Assembly (NCBI RefSeq): GCF_018449675.1
Contig: NZ_JAAVUZ010000001.1
Coordinates: 496,001-560,000 of the forward strand
Direction: 5' to 3'
Source: Glaciihabitans sp. dw_435
GTDB taxonomy: Bacteria; Actinomycetota; Actinomycetes; Actinomycetales; Microbacteriaceae
Length of the DNA stretch: 64,000 nucleotides
Shown here in pieces: positions 17,330 to 28,521 of the stretch. The notes beneath the pieces were generated by a model. It searched no databases and was not told the origin of the DNA. It saw nothing but the letters and a program-made list of their open reading frames with translations. The stretch's first letter is position 1, and the number at the start of each line of letters is the position of its first letter. The translations under genes were made by a program, and so were the position numbers.

Positions 17330-18202
17330 TCACTGGCCGGGCAGCTCGAAGGTTCTGTCTGACGTTTCCACGACGAGCCCGTCCGCGACCAGCCCGGTCA
17401 GCGAGCGGGCTCGTTGCGCGTCATCCGCCCATACCGACTCGATCTCGAGCATCGTGACGGGGATGTCGCTGCCGCGCAGCTCCGCCATGATCAGCCCACG
17501 CACCTGCCGGTCGGAGCCCTCGAACTTTTTCTGTTGCGGCGCGCGCTTTCCCTCGAATTCCGGATACCCCTCGGCCCGCCAGCGGCACATGTCCGCGATG
17601 GGGCACACGTCGCACCGGGGAGCCCGTGCCGTGCAGACGATTGCTCCGAGTTCCATGATTCCGGCGTTCGCCAGCGCGGCGGCGGGGACGTCCTCGGGCA
17701 GCTGTTCTTCCATCGACGCAAGATCGCGTTTGGTCGACGGAACACCTGCCTCGCCGAGGCCGTTCACTGCCCGGGCCAGCACCCGCCGTACGTTGATGTC
17801 GACAACGGGGTGGCGGTGCCCATACGCGAAGACCGCAACGGCGCGGGCGGTGTAGTCGCCAATACCCGGCAGGGCCAACAGGTCGTCGACGCTCTCCGGC
17901 ACGACGCCCCCGTGGCGCTCTGTAATGGCCACTGCGGCCGCGTGGAGGTTGAGCGCCCTCCGCGGGTAGCCGAGTCGGTCCCAGGCCCGCACGGCGTCAC
18001 CGGGAGACGCGGCGGCGAGATCTGCCGGGGTCGGCCACCGTTGAAGCCACTCGTCGAGGCGCGGAATGACCCGCGCAACCGGGGTCTGTTGCAACATGAA
18101 CTCGCTCACCAGGGTGCCCCAGGCGGTGAAACCGGGCCTGCGCCACGGCAGATCCCGCCCCGTTGCCGCAAACCAGTCGATGACGGCCGGCGCGATTCTC
18201 AT
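17330..18202 (-). CDS. mutY: A/G-specific adenine DNA glycosylase
   Basis: A 290-residue HhH-GPD glycosylase that removes adenine opposite 8-oxoguanine. The catalytic Glu lies in EFMLQQTP (about residue 34), the helix-hairpin-helix is LPGIGDYTARAVA (about 108-120), and the catalytic Asp is in VVDINVRRVLAR (about 134). Four cysteines for the 4Fe-4S cluster are in CTARAPRCDVCPIADMC (about 190-206). The C-terminal NUDIX-like lesion-sensing domain is short, as in other actinobacterial MutY. Starts with a leaderless-type ATG. Confidence 0.93.
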   Translation of the reverse strand: MRIAPAVIDWFAATGRDLPWRRPGFTAWGTLVSEFMLQQTPVARVIPRLDEWLQRWPTPADLAAASPGDAVRAWDRLGYPRRALNLHAAAVAITERHGGVVPESVDDLLALPGIGDYTARAVAVFAYGHRHPVVDINVRRVLARAVNGLGEAGVPSTKRDLASMEEQLPEDVPAAALANAGIMELGAIVCTARAPRCDVCPIADMCRWRAEGYPEFEGKRAPQQKKFEGSDRQVRGLIMAELRGSDIPVTMLEIESVWADDAQRARSLTGLVADGLVVETSDRTFELPGQ

Positions 18203-18208
18203 GACACA

Positions 18209-18218
18209 AGATTAGGCT
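18209..18218. promoter_or_regulatory. Overlapping divergent -10 elements of mutY and the kinase gene
   Basis: The bases AGATTAGGCT contain TAATCT on the - strand (18214-18209), 6 bases before the mutY ATG, and TAGGCT on the + strand (18213-18218), 7 bases before ATG 18226. The two hexamers share the self-complementary TA at 18213-18214. Both genes appear leaderless, and the whole intergenic region is only 23 bp. Confidence 0.6.
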
Positions 18219-18225
18219 GGTGGGT

Positions 18226-18894
18226 ATGACGAAATGGGCACCGGCTCGGGACGACACGATCGGCGCACTCGCCGACGAGATTCTTCACAACTATGCGCAC
18301 GGCCGGGTGGTGATCGCCATTGACGGCCCCGACGGCGCGGGCAAATCGCGTTTCGCCGACGACCTCGCCCGCGTGATGGGTGAGCGCGGGGCCGCCGCAT
18401 TCCGCGCCTCCATCGACGACTTCCATCACCCGTACGCGGAGGCGACCCGGGCCGGCGAGTTCGATCCGGCGGGCTGGTACGAGAACGCGTATGACTACGA
18501 CCTGCTCAAGACCGCTCTGATCAGTCCCTTCCGCAGCGGTGGGAGCTTCGTCACCGCAGCGTTCGATTCCGCCGAAGACATCCCGCGCACGCTCGCGGCC
18601 CTCACGGCGCCGGACGACGCGATCCTGATCGTCGACGGGGTCTTCCTCAATCGCGAGGAGCTGCGTGGCCTGTGGAACTACTCCGTCTACCTCGATGTGG
18701 ACGCGGATGTCGCGCTTGCCCGCTATTCCGAGCGTGACGGCACCTCACCCGACGCCGACGCTCCGCTCAACCAGCGCTACCTCGGTGCGCAGGCGCTCTA
18801 CGTGGCCGAAGCGCGCCCCCGCACCACGGCGACTGCCATCATCAACAACGCGGATTACGAGCACCCGCGTCGCAACTTCGCCGACAGCTGCTGA
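18226..18894 (+). CDS. Uridine-kinase-like P-loop phosphotransferase
   Basis: A 222-residue P-loop kinase. Walker A is GPDGAGKS (about residues 34-41), followed by a SIDDFHHPY motif that resembles the substrate loop of uridine kinase and phosphoribulokinase relatives. LIVDGVFLNREEL matches the Walker-B-like region. The substrate is not determined by sequence; nucleosides are the best guess. ATG 18226 is favoured over GTG 18220 by the TAGGCT exactly 7 bases upstream. Confidence 0.8.
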   Translation: MTKWAPARDDTIGALADEILHNYAHGRVVIAIDGPDGAGKSRFADDLARVMGERGAAAFRASIDDFHHPYAEATRAGEFDPAGWYENAYDYDLLKTALISPFRSGGSFVTAAFDSAEDIPRTLAALTAPDDAILIVDGVFLNREELRGLWNYSVYLDVDADVALARYSERDGTSPDADAPLNQRYLGAQALYVAEARPRTTATAIINNADYEHPRRNFADSC

Positions 18895-18900
18895 GCAGCT

Positions 18901-19890
18901 CTACGGGCGGAAGCGTCGAACTACCTCGTCCGGCGTGATGAATTGCCCGGTGCGCTCGACCTCGTGGACGAGGTCAACGAGCGCGGCGTTGACGGTCGCC
19001 TTCTCGCCGATCTGCCCGGCAGCACGCACGACGGCCCCGTTGAGGTAGTCGATCTCCGTGAGCTGGCCCCGGCGGATGCTCTGCAGCGTTGAGCCCGGGT
19101 TGGGGATGTCACCCATGCGTGCACTCAGCCGTTTGGGCAACTCCTGCGCGATCAGCGTCGGCGCCGCGGCGAACACCCGCAGGATCGTGTGACTGAGACC
19201 CTGCAGCTCCTCGAAGTGCACATCCGAGGCCAGAGCGATGCGCACGGTCTCACGCATGCTCCCCGTCATCAGGTGGCGCAGCCCGTCGTGGGCGATGACC
19301 TCCTGGGCGCTCAGGCCGGTGATGGCCGGAAGGGCGTTGATCTGGTTGACCACGAGTTTCGTCCACTGGGCACCGCGGAAGTTCTCGACAGCGCTGACGT
19401 CCATCACCGCTCCGAGCAGGCGGGTGGCGACACCGAGCGCGTGGTCACCGAGTCCGCCGCCGAGGAACGTGCGGCCAGGGCCGGTGACGGAAACCTCCCC
19501 GGGTGACAGGTACGAGGCGGCGAACAGCGCGAGACCGCCGAGAATATCCGCGGCGGGGGCTTCGTGCCGCGCAGTGTCGATCGCGTCGAGACCGTTCTGC
19601 ACGATCACCAGCGGGATCGCCCCGAGCTGGTTCGCATTCGAGCGCAGCGCCCCCGGGGCATCCTGAGCCTTCGTTGTCACGATGACAAGCTCGGGTCGTT
19701 CACTCAGCGTCTCGTTGGCCGCGACGCGCGCCGTGTACTCTCCCCAGATGCCCGACAGGTGTAGGCCGGTCGACCGGATCGCCGCAAGATGATCCCCCCG
19801 CGCGGTGACCTCGACGTTGTGGCCGGCCCGGGCAAGCAGCGCGGCCATCGTTCCGCCCACGGCACCCGCACCGATCACTCCCACCCGCAT
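18901..19890 (-). CDS. panE: 2-dehydropantoate 2-reductase (ketopantoate reductase)
   Basis: A 329-residue NAD(P)-dependent reductase of the PanE/ApbA family, expected to make pantoate for coenzyme A. The Rossmann motif GVIGAGAVGG is at residues 4-13. The second domain contains the catalytic Lys region WTKLVVNQINALPAITG (about 175-190). It is tail-to-tail with the kinase gene (6 bp apart) and divergent from truB. Several PanE-family members act on other 2-oxo acids, so the exact substrate is inferred. Confidence 0.87.
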   Translation of the reverse strand: MRVGVIGAGAVGGTMAALLARAGHNVEVTARGDHLAAIRSTGLHLSGIWGEYTARVAANETLSERPELVIVTTKAQDAPGALRSNANQLGAIPLVIVQNGLDAIDTARHEAPAADILGGLALFAASYLSPGEVSVTGPGRTFLGGGLGDHALGVATRLLGAVMDVSAVENFRGAQWTKLVVNQINALPAITGLSAQEVIAHDGLRHLMTGSMRETVRIALASDVHFEELQGLSHTILRVFAAAPTLIAQELPKRLSARMGDIPNPGSTLQSIRRGQLTEIDYLNGAVVRAAGQIGEKATVNAALVDLVHEVERTGQFITPDEVVRRFRP

Positions 19891-19897
19891 ACGCCAA

Positions 19898-19926
19898 ATC
19901 CTATGCGGACGGATGACTGGTAGCGT
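19898..19926. promoter_or_regulatory. Face-to-face -10 elements of panE and truB
   Basis: TAGGAT on the - strand (19903-19898) is 7 bases before the panE ATG. TAGCGT on the + strand (19921-19926) is 7 bases before the truB GTG. The hexamers are exactly 17 bp apart, so each occupies the position expected for the other promoter's -35 element. The intergenic region is 43 bp and neither gene has a Shine-Dalgarno sequence. Confidence 0.6.
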
Positions 19927-19933
19927 GCCTGAC

Positions 19934-20866
19934 GTGACTAGTGGAAGTACGGTCTCCGCAAGCCGCAGCGGGATCCTGTTTGTTGATAAGCCCATGGGCC
20001 TGACCAGCCACGGCGTTGTGTCCCGCGTGCGCAAGCTCGCCGACACCCGCAAGGTCGGGCACGCCGGCACCCTCGACCCGATGGCGACCGGCTTGCTGAC
20101 GCTCGGCATCAACAGTTCGACGCGTCTGCTGACCTTCCTGGTCGGTCTCGACAAGGAATACCTGGCAACGATTCGCCTCGGTTCCATGACGGACACGGAT
20201 GACGCGGAGGGCGAGTCCGTCTCGCTCGCCGATCCAGCAGTCCTCCTCGGCATCACCGATGAGGCAATCCGTGCCGGCGTCCTCCCGCTCACGGGCGAGA
20301 TCTCCCAGGTACCGAGCACCGTGAGCGCCATCCGCGTCGATGGCCGCCACGCCTATTCCCTCGCCCGTGCGGGGGAGACGGTCGTGCTCAAGCCCCGCGA
20401 GGTCACGGTGTCCGCCTTCGAGGTGCTCGCCATCCGCCACACGGACGAGTCGCCCACACCGTTCATTGACGTGGACGTCCGCGTCGAGTGCTCCAGCGGA
20501 ACCTACATTCGCGCCCTTGCCCGCGATCTCGGTGCGTCCCTCGGTGCCGGTGGTCATCTCACGGCGCTTCGCCGGTCCCGGGTCGGACCATTTTCCCTGA
20601 CGGATGCCACGCCGCTCGAGAACCTCGACCCCGATCGTGATCTCATTCCCGCCGGCGCTGTCGCGGCGCGGCTGTTCCCCGTTCTCGAGCTCGATGCCGA
20701 CAGCGCCACCGACCTCTCCCATGGCAAGCGCCTGAGCGGCCTGGACCTGTCGGGCGGCCCCATCGCCGCCATCGCTCCGGGAGGACAGCTCGTCGGGCTC
20801 GTCGAGGTCACGGACGGGATCGCCAAGCCGATCATCAACTTTCCCCCGGGCGAGGTGAACGCGTGA
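19934..20866 (+). CDS. truB: tRNA pseudouridine(55) synthase
   Basis: A 310-residue TruB that converts U55 to pseudouridine in the tRNA T-arm. The N-terminal GILFVDKPMGLTSH and the catalytic Asp in GHAGTLDPMATGLL (about residue 45) are canonical. The RNA-binding region VECSSGTYIRALARDLG is intact, and a C-terminal PUA-like part runs to the end. GTG 19934 begins a leaderless-type transcript; earlier in-frame codons lie in the intergenic region and in panE. It heads the truB-membrane-membrane-ribF cluster. Confidence 0.95.
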   Translation: MTSGSTVSASRSGILFVDKPMGLTSHGVVSRVRKLADTRKVGHAGTLDPMATGLLTLGINSSTRLLTFLVGLDKEYLATIRLGSMTDTDDAEGESVSLADPAVLLGITDEAIRAGVLPLTGEISQVPSTVSAIRVDGRHAYSLARAGETVVLKPREVTVSAFEVLAIRHTDESPTPFIDVDVRVECSSGTYIRALARDLGASLGAGGHLTALRRSRVGPFSLTDATPLENLDPDRDLIPAGAVAARLFPVLELDADSATDLSHGKRLSGLDLSGGPIAAIAPGGQLVGLVEVTDGIAKPIINFPPGEVNA

Positions 20867-22686: not shown

Positions 22687-23352
22687 TCAGTCGCCAAGAT
22701 TCTCCGGCATGCCTGCGCGTGACCAGAGGAAGAGGATGATCCCGGCCGCGGCAGCCTGCCAGCTCTGGCCGGCACCCACCGACCATTCGCCATCGACTGC
22801 CTCCAGCTTTCTCCTCCGCAGCACCGCCCGCACCTCGGTGGGGGCGCTCAGGCTCCGGGCAAGCGCCACGGCGCCGGCGGCGATCGGATCCACGACGACG
22901 CCGAGGCCAACCGTGTGCGCGATGTCATAGCCGTCGACGACGCCCACCGACAGGTCCTCGACGCGGGTGCGATGGGCAGACATGTCGATGGTGGCCGACA
23001 GCGCGCGCAGCGCGGCGGCGAGCTCTGGGCGGGAACCCATGCCCGCCCTCATGCTTGCCTCGCGGGTCACTGCCGCCACCGACGTTCGTGTCGACAGGGC
23101 AGCGCGCACCAGTGGCCTCCTGCGCTCCGCGGCGGACGTCGTCAGGCGCCAGAGTGTGTGGCCGATGGCATCGCGAACGCGGTACCCGTCACGGCCCGTG
23201 GGGGACTCCAGCGCCGCGTCATCCATTCGGTCCACGAGCGCGGCGATCGACATCAGCGTGTCCGCGAGCGGCTGCGACCAGTCACTCGTGACGTGCGACT
23301 CATCGCCGGGCTTTCGCTGGCTGAGTGGCAGGTACTTGCCTAGATCGGTCAT
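22687..23352 (-). CDS. DinB/maleylpyruvate-isomerase-like protein
   Basis: A 221-residue protein resembling the mycothiol-dependent maleylpyruvate isomerase (MDMPI) N-terminal four-helix fold: SQPLADTLMSIAALVDRMDDAAL, then VRDAIGHTLWRL with a possible metal-binding His. The family assignment is from pattern only, and the usual set of three His ligands is not clear. The ATG at 23352 has TAGAGT exactly 6 bases upstream and no ribosome site. Convergent with ribF. Confidence 0.6.
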   Translation of the reverse strand: MTDLGKYLPLSQRKPGDESHVTSDWSQPLADTLMSIAALVDRMDDAALESPTGRDGYRVRDAIGHTLWRLTTSAAERRRPLVRAALSTRTSVAAVTREASMRAGMGSRPELAAALRALSATIDMSAHRTRVEDLSVGVVDGYDIAHTVGLGVVVDPIAAGAVALARSLSAPTEVRAVLRRRKLEAVDGEWSVGAGQSWQAAAAGIILFLWSRAGMPENLGD

Positions 23353-23358
23353 GTGCCA

Positions 23359-23414
23359 ACTCTAGGCTCGTGGGGCTTCCGCCGAGGAGGGGTGCCCGTC
23401 CAGCACTCTAGAAT
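23359..23414. promoter_or_regulatory. Divergent leaderless-type promoters of the MDMPI-like and MFS genes
   Basis: TAGAGT on the - strand (23364-23359) is 6 bases before ATG 23352. TAGAAT on the + strand (23409-23414) is 6 bases before GTG 23421. A further TAGGCT on the + strand (23363-23368) shares its TA with the - strand hexamer, the same arrangement as at mutY. Confidence 0.5.
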
Positions 23415-23420
23415 TACACG

Positions 23421-27502: not shown

Positions 27503-28435
27503 TTAGGGAACGAGCTCCGCGCGGTGAATGAGGGCCGCCGCACCGATGAGCGGGCCGTCGCTGGACAGCCCGGAGGGAACGACCTTTACCTTTGTAACAA
27601 ATCCGAAGTTGACGCGCGTGGCGATTGCCGTACGGATGTGGTCAAACAGGTCGGGCGTGACGTGCGAGAAGCCTCCGCCGATGGCGACGATCTCGAGGTC
27701 AACAAGGGACGTCGCCGACGCGATGGCCCTGCCGATGGCGCGACCGGAACGCTCGACGGCGGCGGCGGCGATGGTGTCACCGGCCGCGTAGCTGGCGGCG
27801 AGGTCTTCGCCGGTCGATCCGACCCAGCCCTGCGCGCGCGCCCAGGAAACGGTCTTGGGACCGGAGGCGATCGCTTCGACGCAGCCGCGTCCACCGCAGG
27901 GGCACGGGTCGTCGAAGCCGGCGACCTCGATGTGGCCGATGTGGCCGGCGTTGCCGGTGGGACCGGCGACGGTGAGGCCGCCGAGGATGATTCCGCCGCC
28001 GATACCTGTGGAGACGATCATGCCCATGACGTTGTTGTAGCCGCGGGCAGCGCCCACCCAGTGCTCGGCGAGGGCGATGCACAGGCCGTCCATGCGGAGG
28101 GTCACGGGCACGGCGGGAACGTGCGCGGCAACGAGGTCGCGCAGGGGGAACCCGCGCCACACCGGAAGATTCAGGGGAGAGACGAGGGCATTGGCGACAT
28201 CAATGGGGCCGGCGGAGCCGATGCCAACGCCCACGAGCTCCGCGTCAGAGGGGAGGCTCGCCAGTGAATCGGCGACCACCGAGAGGACGGCCGCCGCGAG
28301 GTCGTCGGACGTGGATGCAGGTCCGGTCGGGTGCCGGAACCGGGTTCCGGCAACGACGTTTCCGTCGCTGTCTACGAGTGCTGCTTCGGCTTTAGTGCCG
28401 CCAAGGTCAACTGCTAGCGCCACTGCCAAAGTCAT
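27503..28435 (-). CDS. ROK-family sugar kinase (glucokinase-like)
   Basis: A 310-residue ROK kinase. The phosphate-binding VDLGGTKAEAALVD is at about residues 8-21, STGIGGGIILGG at about 133, and the zinc-binding ROK signature CPCGGRGCVEAIASG at about 178-192. No N-terminal helix-turn-helix is present, so it is an enzyme rather than a NagC-type repressor. Glucose or N-acetyl sugars are likely substrates. ATG 28435 has TACGAT exactly 6 bases upstream. Confidence 0.88.
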   Translation of the reverse strand: MTLAVALAVDLGGTKAEAALVDSDGNVVAGTRFRHPTGPASTSDDLAAAVLSVVADSLASLPSDAELVGVGIGSAGPIDVANALVSPLNLPVWRGFPLRDLVAAHVPAVPVTLRMDGLCIALAEHWVGAARGYNNVMGMIVSTGIGGGIILGGLTVAGPTGNAGHIGHIEVAGFDDPCPCGGRGCVEAIASGPKTVSWARAQGWVGSTGEDLAASYAAGDTIAAAAVERSGRAIGRAIASATSLVDLEIVAIGGGFSHVTPDLFDHIRTAIATRVNFGFVTKVKVVPSGLSSDGPLIGAAALIHRAELVP

Positions 28436-28441
28436 GCCCCA

Positions 28442-28447
28442 ATCGTA
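28442..28447 (-). promoter_or_regulatory. Putative -10 of leaderless ROK-kinase transcript
   Basis: TACGAT on the - strand lies 6 bases before ATG 28435; no ribosome site is present. Confidence 0.5.
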
Positions 28448-28484
28448 CTGGCGCGCGGAGGGGCCCAATGTCCGCCCGGGCGGC

Positions 28485-28515
28485 TGGACAGTTTCCCAGC
28501 TAGCGTTCCTAGGCT
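28485..28515 (+). promoter_or_regulatory. Putative leaderless promoter of the NAD(P)-binding protein gene
   Basis: TGGACA (28485-28490, five of six matches to TTGACA) and TAGGCT (28510-28515) are 19 bp apart. TAGGCT ends 6 bases before ATG 28522. Confidence 0.5.
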
Positions 28516-28521
28516 CACAGG

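Follow-up and report, generated by a model that had tools for sequence, protein, structure and literature searches.

The 23 bp between the start codons of mutY and a divergently oriented kinase gene very probably form a genuine pseudo-symmetric bidirectional core promoter of the 23-bp type, with each of its -10 elements driving a predicted leaderless mRNA, as judged from the DNA itself and its comparison with relatives. The mutY/kinase promoter is real and conserved, and it belongs to a recognised promoter type that recurs in related bacteria. In the mechanism we propose, two opposite -10 elements, predicted to be read by the housekeeping sigma factor, overlap in a self-complementary TA dinucleotide, and each would give rise to a leaderless mRNA starting at, or no more than 1-2 nt from, its start codon, mutY to the left and the kinase to the right, with the promoter, both 5' ends and both start codons all lying within less than 30 bp. 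RNA polymerase would occupy the site in one orientation at a time, melting the same TA either way; at low ordinary activity both genes would be expressed, and interference would become appreciable only if one direction were strongly activated. The two directions may differ greatly in strength. Because TA is self-complementary, such a configuration should arise easily, as a single A four bases upstream supplies a TANNNT motif with a divergent partner.

Anatomy of the gap and of the genes that bound it

In the window (the whole stretch of 64,000 nucleotides that was analysed), positions 18200-18228 spell CAT GACACA AGATTAGGCT GGTGGGT ATG, and the intergenic region between the two start codons (18203-18225, 23 bp) comprises the whole predicted bidirectional promoter region. 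The mutY -10, TAATCT, runs on the reverse strand from 18214 to 18209 and ends 6 nt before the mutY ATG; the kinase -10, TAGGCT, occupies 18213-18218 on the forward strand and ends 7 nt before the kinase ATG; the 10-bp core AGATTAGGCT (18209-18218) spans both. The T and A of 18213-18214, a self-complementary dinucleotide, serve as positions 1 and 2 in both elements, making the overlap reciprocal, and TAATCT and TAGGCT overlap nowhere else. From the -10 spacing and the statistics of leaderless genes given below, we place the predicted transcription starts at the A of each ATG, 18202 on the reverse strand for mutY and 18226 on the forward strand for the kinase, so that the starts predicted from the -10 positions lie 24 bp apart. 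A generic sigma-70 scan of the locus returned no -10/-35 pair and no terminator, a result that says little about promoters lacking a -35 element, as those of actinobacteria often do. The preliminary description had reported a 23-bp gap with -10 elements overlapping in the TA at 18213-18214, and its coordinates and anatomy are borne out; its further proposals, that the divergent overlap works through the self-complementarity of TA, that both genes are leaderless and that transcription diverges by symmetry, find support in the sequence and in the comparisons of spacing and orthologues that follow, and we regard them as probable.

The leftward gene (17330-18202, reverse strand, 290 aa, start ATG 18202-18200) is assigned as mutY, encoding a predicted A/G-specific adenine glycosylase, as its product scores above the cut-off for the Pfam families HhH-GPD, HHH and EndIII_4Fe-2S. 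MutY is also the best-scoring NCBIfam equivalog for this product (TIGR01084, E 3e-59), though its 200.8 bits fall below the curated equivalog cut-off of 286.5; the match covers residues 5-225 only, which indicates that the C-terminal part is divergent. In the mutY frame, no further in-frame start codon lies upstream of the ATG at 18202. The rightward gene (18226-18894, forward strand, 222 aa, start ATG 18226-18228) encodes a predicted P-loop kinase of the phosphoribulokinase/uridine kinase family, with a match to Pfam PF00485 above the cut-off (E 3.5e-8). No NCBIfam equivalog attains its cut-off for this protein, uridine kinase (udk, TIGR00235) reaching 28.2 bits of the 220.3 needed, and the assignment holds solely at the level of the PRK superfamily; the earlier label of a nucleotide-type kinase is fair at that level only. 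The ATG at 18226 is the start of a conserved N-terminus, M-x-(K/R)-W-(A/T)-P, which in many relatives takes the form M-x-(K/R)-W-A-P. We rejected an alternative kinase start at the GTG of 18220, as the conserved N-terminus begins at the ATG and this GTG lies 1 nt past the -10. At its other end the kinase gene converges with a ketopantoate reductase-like gene (panE/apbA, reverse strand), their stop codons standing about 6 bp apart (window 18889-18906).

The spacing of the two -10 elements matches a leaderless signal that is widespread in the host genome. In 706 kb of that genome (contigs C1 and C2), with genes called by a simple home-made codon-usage script whose calls are approximate, we counted TANNNT at every distance upstream of start codons and found it 6 nt away at 31 of 212 divergent starts and 7 nt away at 14 of the 212, against about one at most other distances; this enrichment indicates that the host uses leaderless promoters with exactly the mutY/kinase geometry. 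Both spacings at the locus, 6 nt for mutY and 7 nt for the kinase, thus fall on enriched distances. In the same sample TAGGCT, the kinase -10, is the most frequent leaderless -10, and its 7-nt spacer is slightly less favoured than 6 nt. Thirteen of 106 divergent pairs appear leaderless on both sides by the script, which finds TA sharing among these thirteen only at mutY/kinase; searching the sample directly with the pattern brings up one more shared-TA case, the pair with an mshA-like glycosyltransferase at C1:417524.

Several neighbouring observations concern other divergent pairs. The mshA-like pair (G000:C1:417524-417552; L180, L139), in which the glycosyltransferase faces a small membrane protein across a shared TA, recurs in L190. 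Elsewhere in the host genome (G000:C47:51112-51140; L178, L201), a proC-like gene and a cation-efflux transporter share a TA within a palindromic ATCCTAGGAT core, and several other genera have both the pair and the core (L181, L182, L185, L186). Within the window, three further divergent pairs (19890-19993, 23352-23420 and 28423-28521) carry leaderless-type TANNNT motifs on both sides with the -10 elements separate.

Recurrence at orthologous loci and across the Microbacteriaceae

Among kinase homologues gathered from Microbacteriaceae, we obtained 70 distinct loci at which mutY divergently adjoins the kinase gene, and in nearly all of them each of the two genes has an in-frame start preceded by TANNNT at 6-7 nt (8 nt in one case). 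With d measured from the first T of one -10 to that of the other, 14 of the 70 loci have the shared TA (d = -1), three (L003, L004 and L044) have the tighter, 18-bp-type overlap TACTCTA (d = -6) with predicted starts 18-19 bp apart, and 49 have separate elements (d >= 7); four gave no mutY-side -10 call. Below d = 7 these loci use just d = -6 and d = -1: base conflict rules out d = 0, -2 and -5, while d = -3, -4 and 1-6 are allowed yet unoccupied among the 70. On a gene tree of mutY and the kinase, several branches of which are weak, the three promoter states require 10 changes, which implies that the shared-TA state was repeatedly gained or lost. Closer to the host, congener G052 retains the core AGATTAGGCT with 10 of 10 bases identical against 1 of 13 flanking bases (Fisher p about 1e-5), and the 23-bp gap length recurs in this congener and in other relatives; in a third congener the mutY and kinase -10 elements stand 107 bp apart.

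The same architecture recurs at other gene pairs. We searched 100 Microbacteriaceae genomes with reversed patterns as controls, taking sums from the tables and counting palindromic matches once, and found 116 matches to CAT-N6-ANNNTANNNT-N7-ATG against 19 for its reversed control (a 6-fold excess), 71 against 5 for the version with 6-nt spacers on both sides (14-fold) and 34 against 14 for the 18-bp-type pattern. Of 30 first-pattern matches not selected by content, 22 are flanked by a divergent pair of ORFs, each 80 codons or longer. Gene names, read from the translations by inspection, place the recurrent shared TA between proC and a cation-efflux transporter and between the mshA-like glycosyltransferase and a membrane protein (both pairs also in the host genome), as well as at thiL/lipoprotein, nnrD/HAD hydrolase or flavin oxidoreductase, dapB/acetyltransferase, rsmD/MoxR ATPase and birA/glycosyltransferase. 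The preliminary description had presented the locus as an unusual, extreme example; with 14 of 70 orthologous loci alike and a family-wide excess at other gene pairs, that characterisation does not hold, and uniqueness of the architecture is ruled out.

The scope of this excess is the family. With GTG starts allowed, the host genome alone gave 5 matches to the 6/7 pattern against 5 controls, no excess, and 3 against 0 for the 6/6 pattern, so the enrichment of the 6/7 pattern rests on the family-wide searches. A search across the phylum returned 126 matches against 79 controls, a weak excess much of which comes from genomes where the controls also match, and we claim the shared-TA pattern within Microbacteriaceae, not beyond the family. 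Side-by-side -10 elements that share no base were almost never matched in the family-wide search, with one match each at d = +1 and d = +4 against ten at d = +10. Sharing a TA is in part preferred because it fixes two fewer bases, one more A being sufficient once a TANNNT exists; this base economy does not account for the scarcity at d = +1 and +4 relative to +10. We tentatively suggest, as a possibility we hold to be appreciably less probable than its negation, that tightly spaced divergent leaderless genes in Microbacteriaceae recurrently collapse onto a shared-TA or 18-bp-type core, a stable state in which intermediate spacings are avoided and the expression or noise of pairs such as mutY/kinase, proC/CDF transporter, thiL/lipoprotein and nnrD/HAD hydrolase would be coupled.

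Competing readings of the shared TA

TANNNT is a short motif, and the reversed controls do yield some matches, which leaves room for the view that the motifs fell into a short gap by chance and have no promoter function; we consider this scarcely credible, as it is contradicted by the genome-wide spacing enrichment at 6 and 7 nt, by recurrence at orthologous loci, by the footprint of the core in the congener and by the surplus over reversed controls across the family (116 against 19 and 71 against 5). A subtler reading holds that a single -10 is used, the other being a by-product of TA symmetry whose gene is read from a promoter inside the coding region of its neighbour. Given one TANNNT, a second does need only one extra base, and bidirectional promoters may be strongly asymmetric; however, both -10 elements have the spacing of leaderless promoters, both are found again at orthologous loci whose well-separated elements must each serve their own gene, and the congener has kept the whole 10-bp core against randomised flanks. 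We therefore judge the use of a single -10 to be unlikely and favour a bidirectional promoter with two working elements.

The preliminary description had proposed that the shared TA may make expression of mutY and the kinase mutually exclusive; that such exclusion is a selected function seems to us very unlikely. Exclusion of two polymerases from a single site follows from the anatomy of mutY/kinase, but the -10 elements are separate at 49 of the 70 orthologous loci, and exclusion by a shared TA is thus not conserved for this gene pair. RNA polymerase has a footprint of roughly 75 bp, from which we infer that many of the orthologous loci with separate -10 elements are still too close for two polymerases; since separate but nearby elements would also clash, the shared TA is neither required for exclusion nor explained by it. 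We know of no functional antagonism between the MutY and kinase proteins. Work on E. coli shows that a bidirectional promoter strongly activated one way can be repressed the other way, but in five such promoters basal activity lay below the level for competition (PMC12825309). Mutually exclusive expression of mutY and the kinase is accordingly offered here as a conjecture to which we assign little weight.

With separate, shared-TA and 18-bp-type promoters at one gene pair in related genera, the mutY/kinase loci constitute a comparative case of the gain and loss of a bidirectional promoter, and the gene pairs listed across the family supply natural replicates for asking if promoter sharing couples expression or does no more than save space. 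If transcripts confirm the predicted starts, two leaderless mRNAs arising from a 10-bp core would approach the minimum size of a divergent control region.

Comparison with known promoter classes

Bidirectional promoters that arise from -10 symmetry are established, and are defined by divergent transcription starts 7-25 bp apart, of which a spacing of 18 bp is commonest, 10 and 23 bp are also preferred and small variations around the preferred values are allowed (PMC10268837; PMC12825309; pseudo-symmetric promoters of Warman et al., 2021, Nat Microbiol, as presented in these two papers). As in that class, the opposite -10 elements at mutY/kinase overlap by TA symmetry and would admit one polymerase at a time, and the predicted separation of 24 bp falls within the defining range, near its upper end and next to 23. 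The 6-nt and 7-nt spacers place the predicted starts one base off the preferred 23 bp, and at other loci 22-bp gaps with 6-nt spacers on both sides would predict 23 bp exactly. Unlike the class as described, in which 18 bp is the commonest spacing, the mutY/kinase RNAs are predicted to be leaderless, with start codons bounding the promoter and its predicted transcription starts.

Actinobacteria use a TANNNT element with no -35 motif, and leaderless genes make up roughly a fifth to a quarter of their total (Cortes et al., 2013, PMC3898074; Zheng et al., 2011, PMC3160421). The mutY/kinase elements resemble these promoters in lying some 12 bp ahead of the start codon, in the absence of a -35 motif and in a predicted transcription start at the start codon; the difference is the overlap of two such elements, one on each strand. 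In Mycobacterium tuberculosis, prpD and Rv1129c are adjoining divergent genes whose leaderless starts were both mapped experimentally, in a report that describes divergent promoters lying close together as a common feature (PMC3898074). That pair shares with mutY/kinase its divergent neighbours, both leaderless (by prediction in our case), whereas the figure legend that presents it is silent on any overlap of the -10 elements. The divergent core promoters of the EcoRV restriction-modification system likewise overlap and exclude polymerase from binding both at once (PMC5333194); unlike them, the mutY/kinase promoter has no known regulator, and the EcoRV promoters are controlled by a C protein and are not leaderless. 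The mutY/kinase locus joins two known things, the bidirectional promoter built on -10 symmetry and the leaderless TANNNT promoter of actinobacteria.
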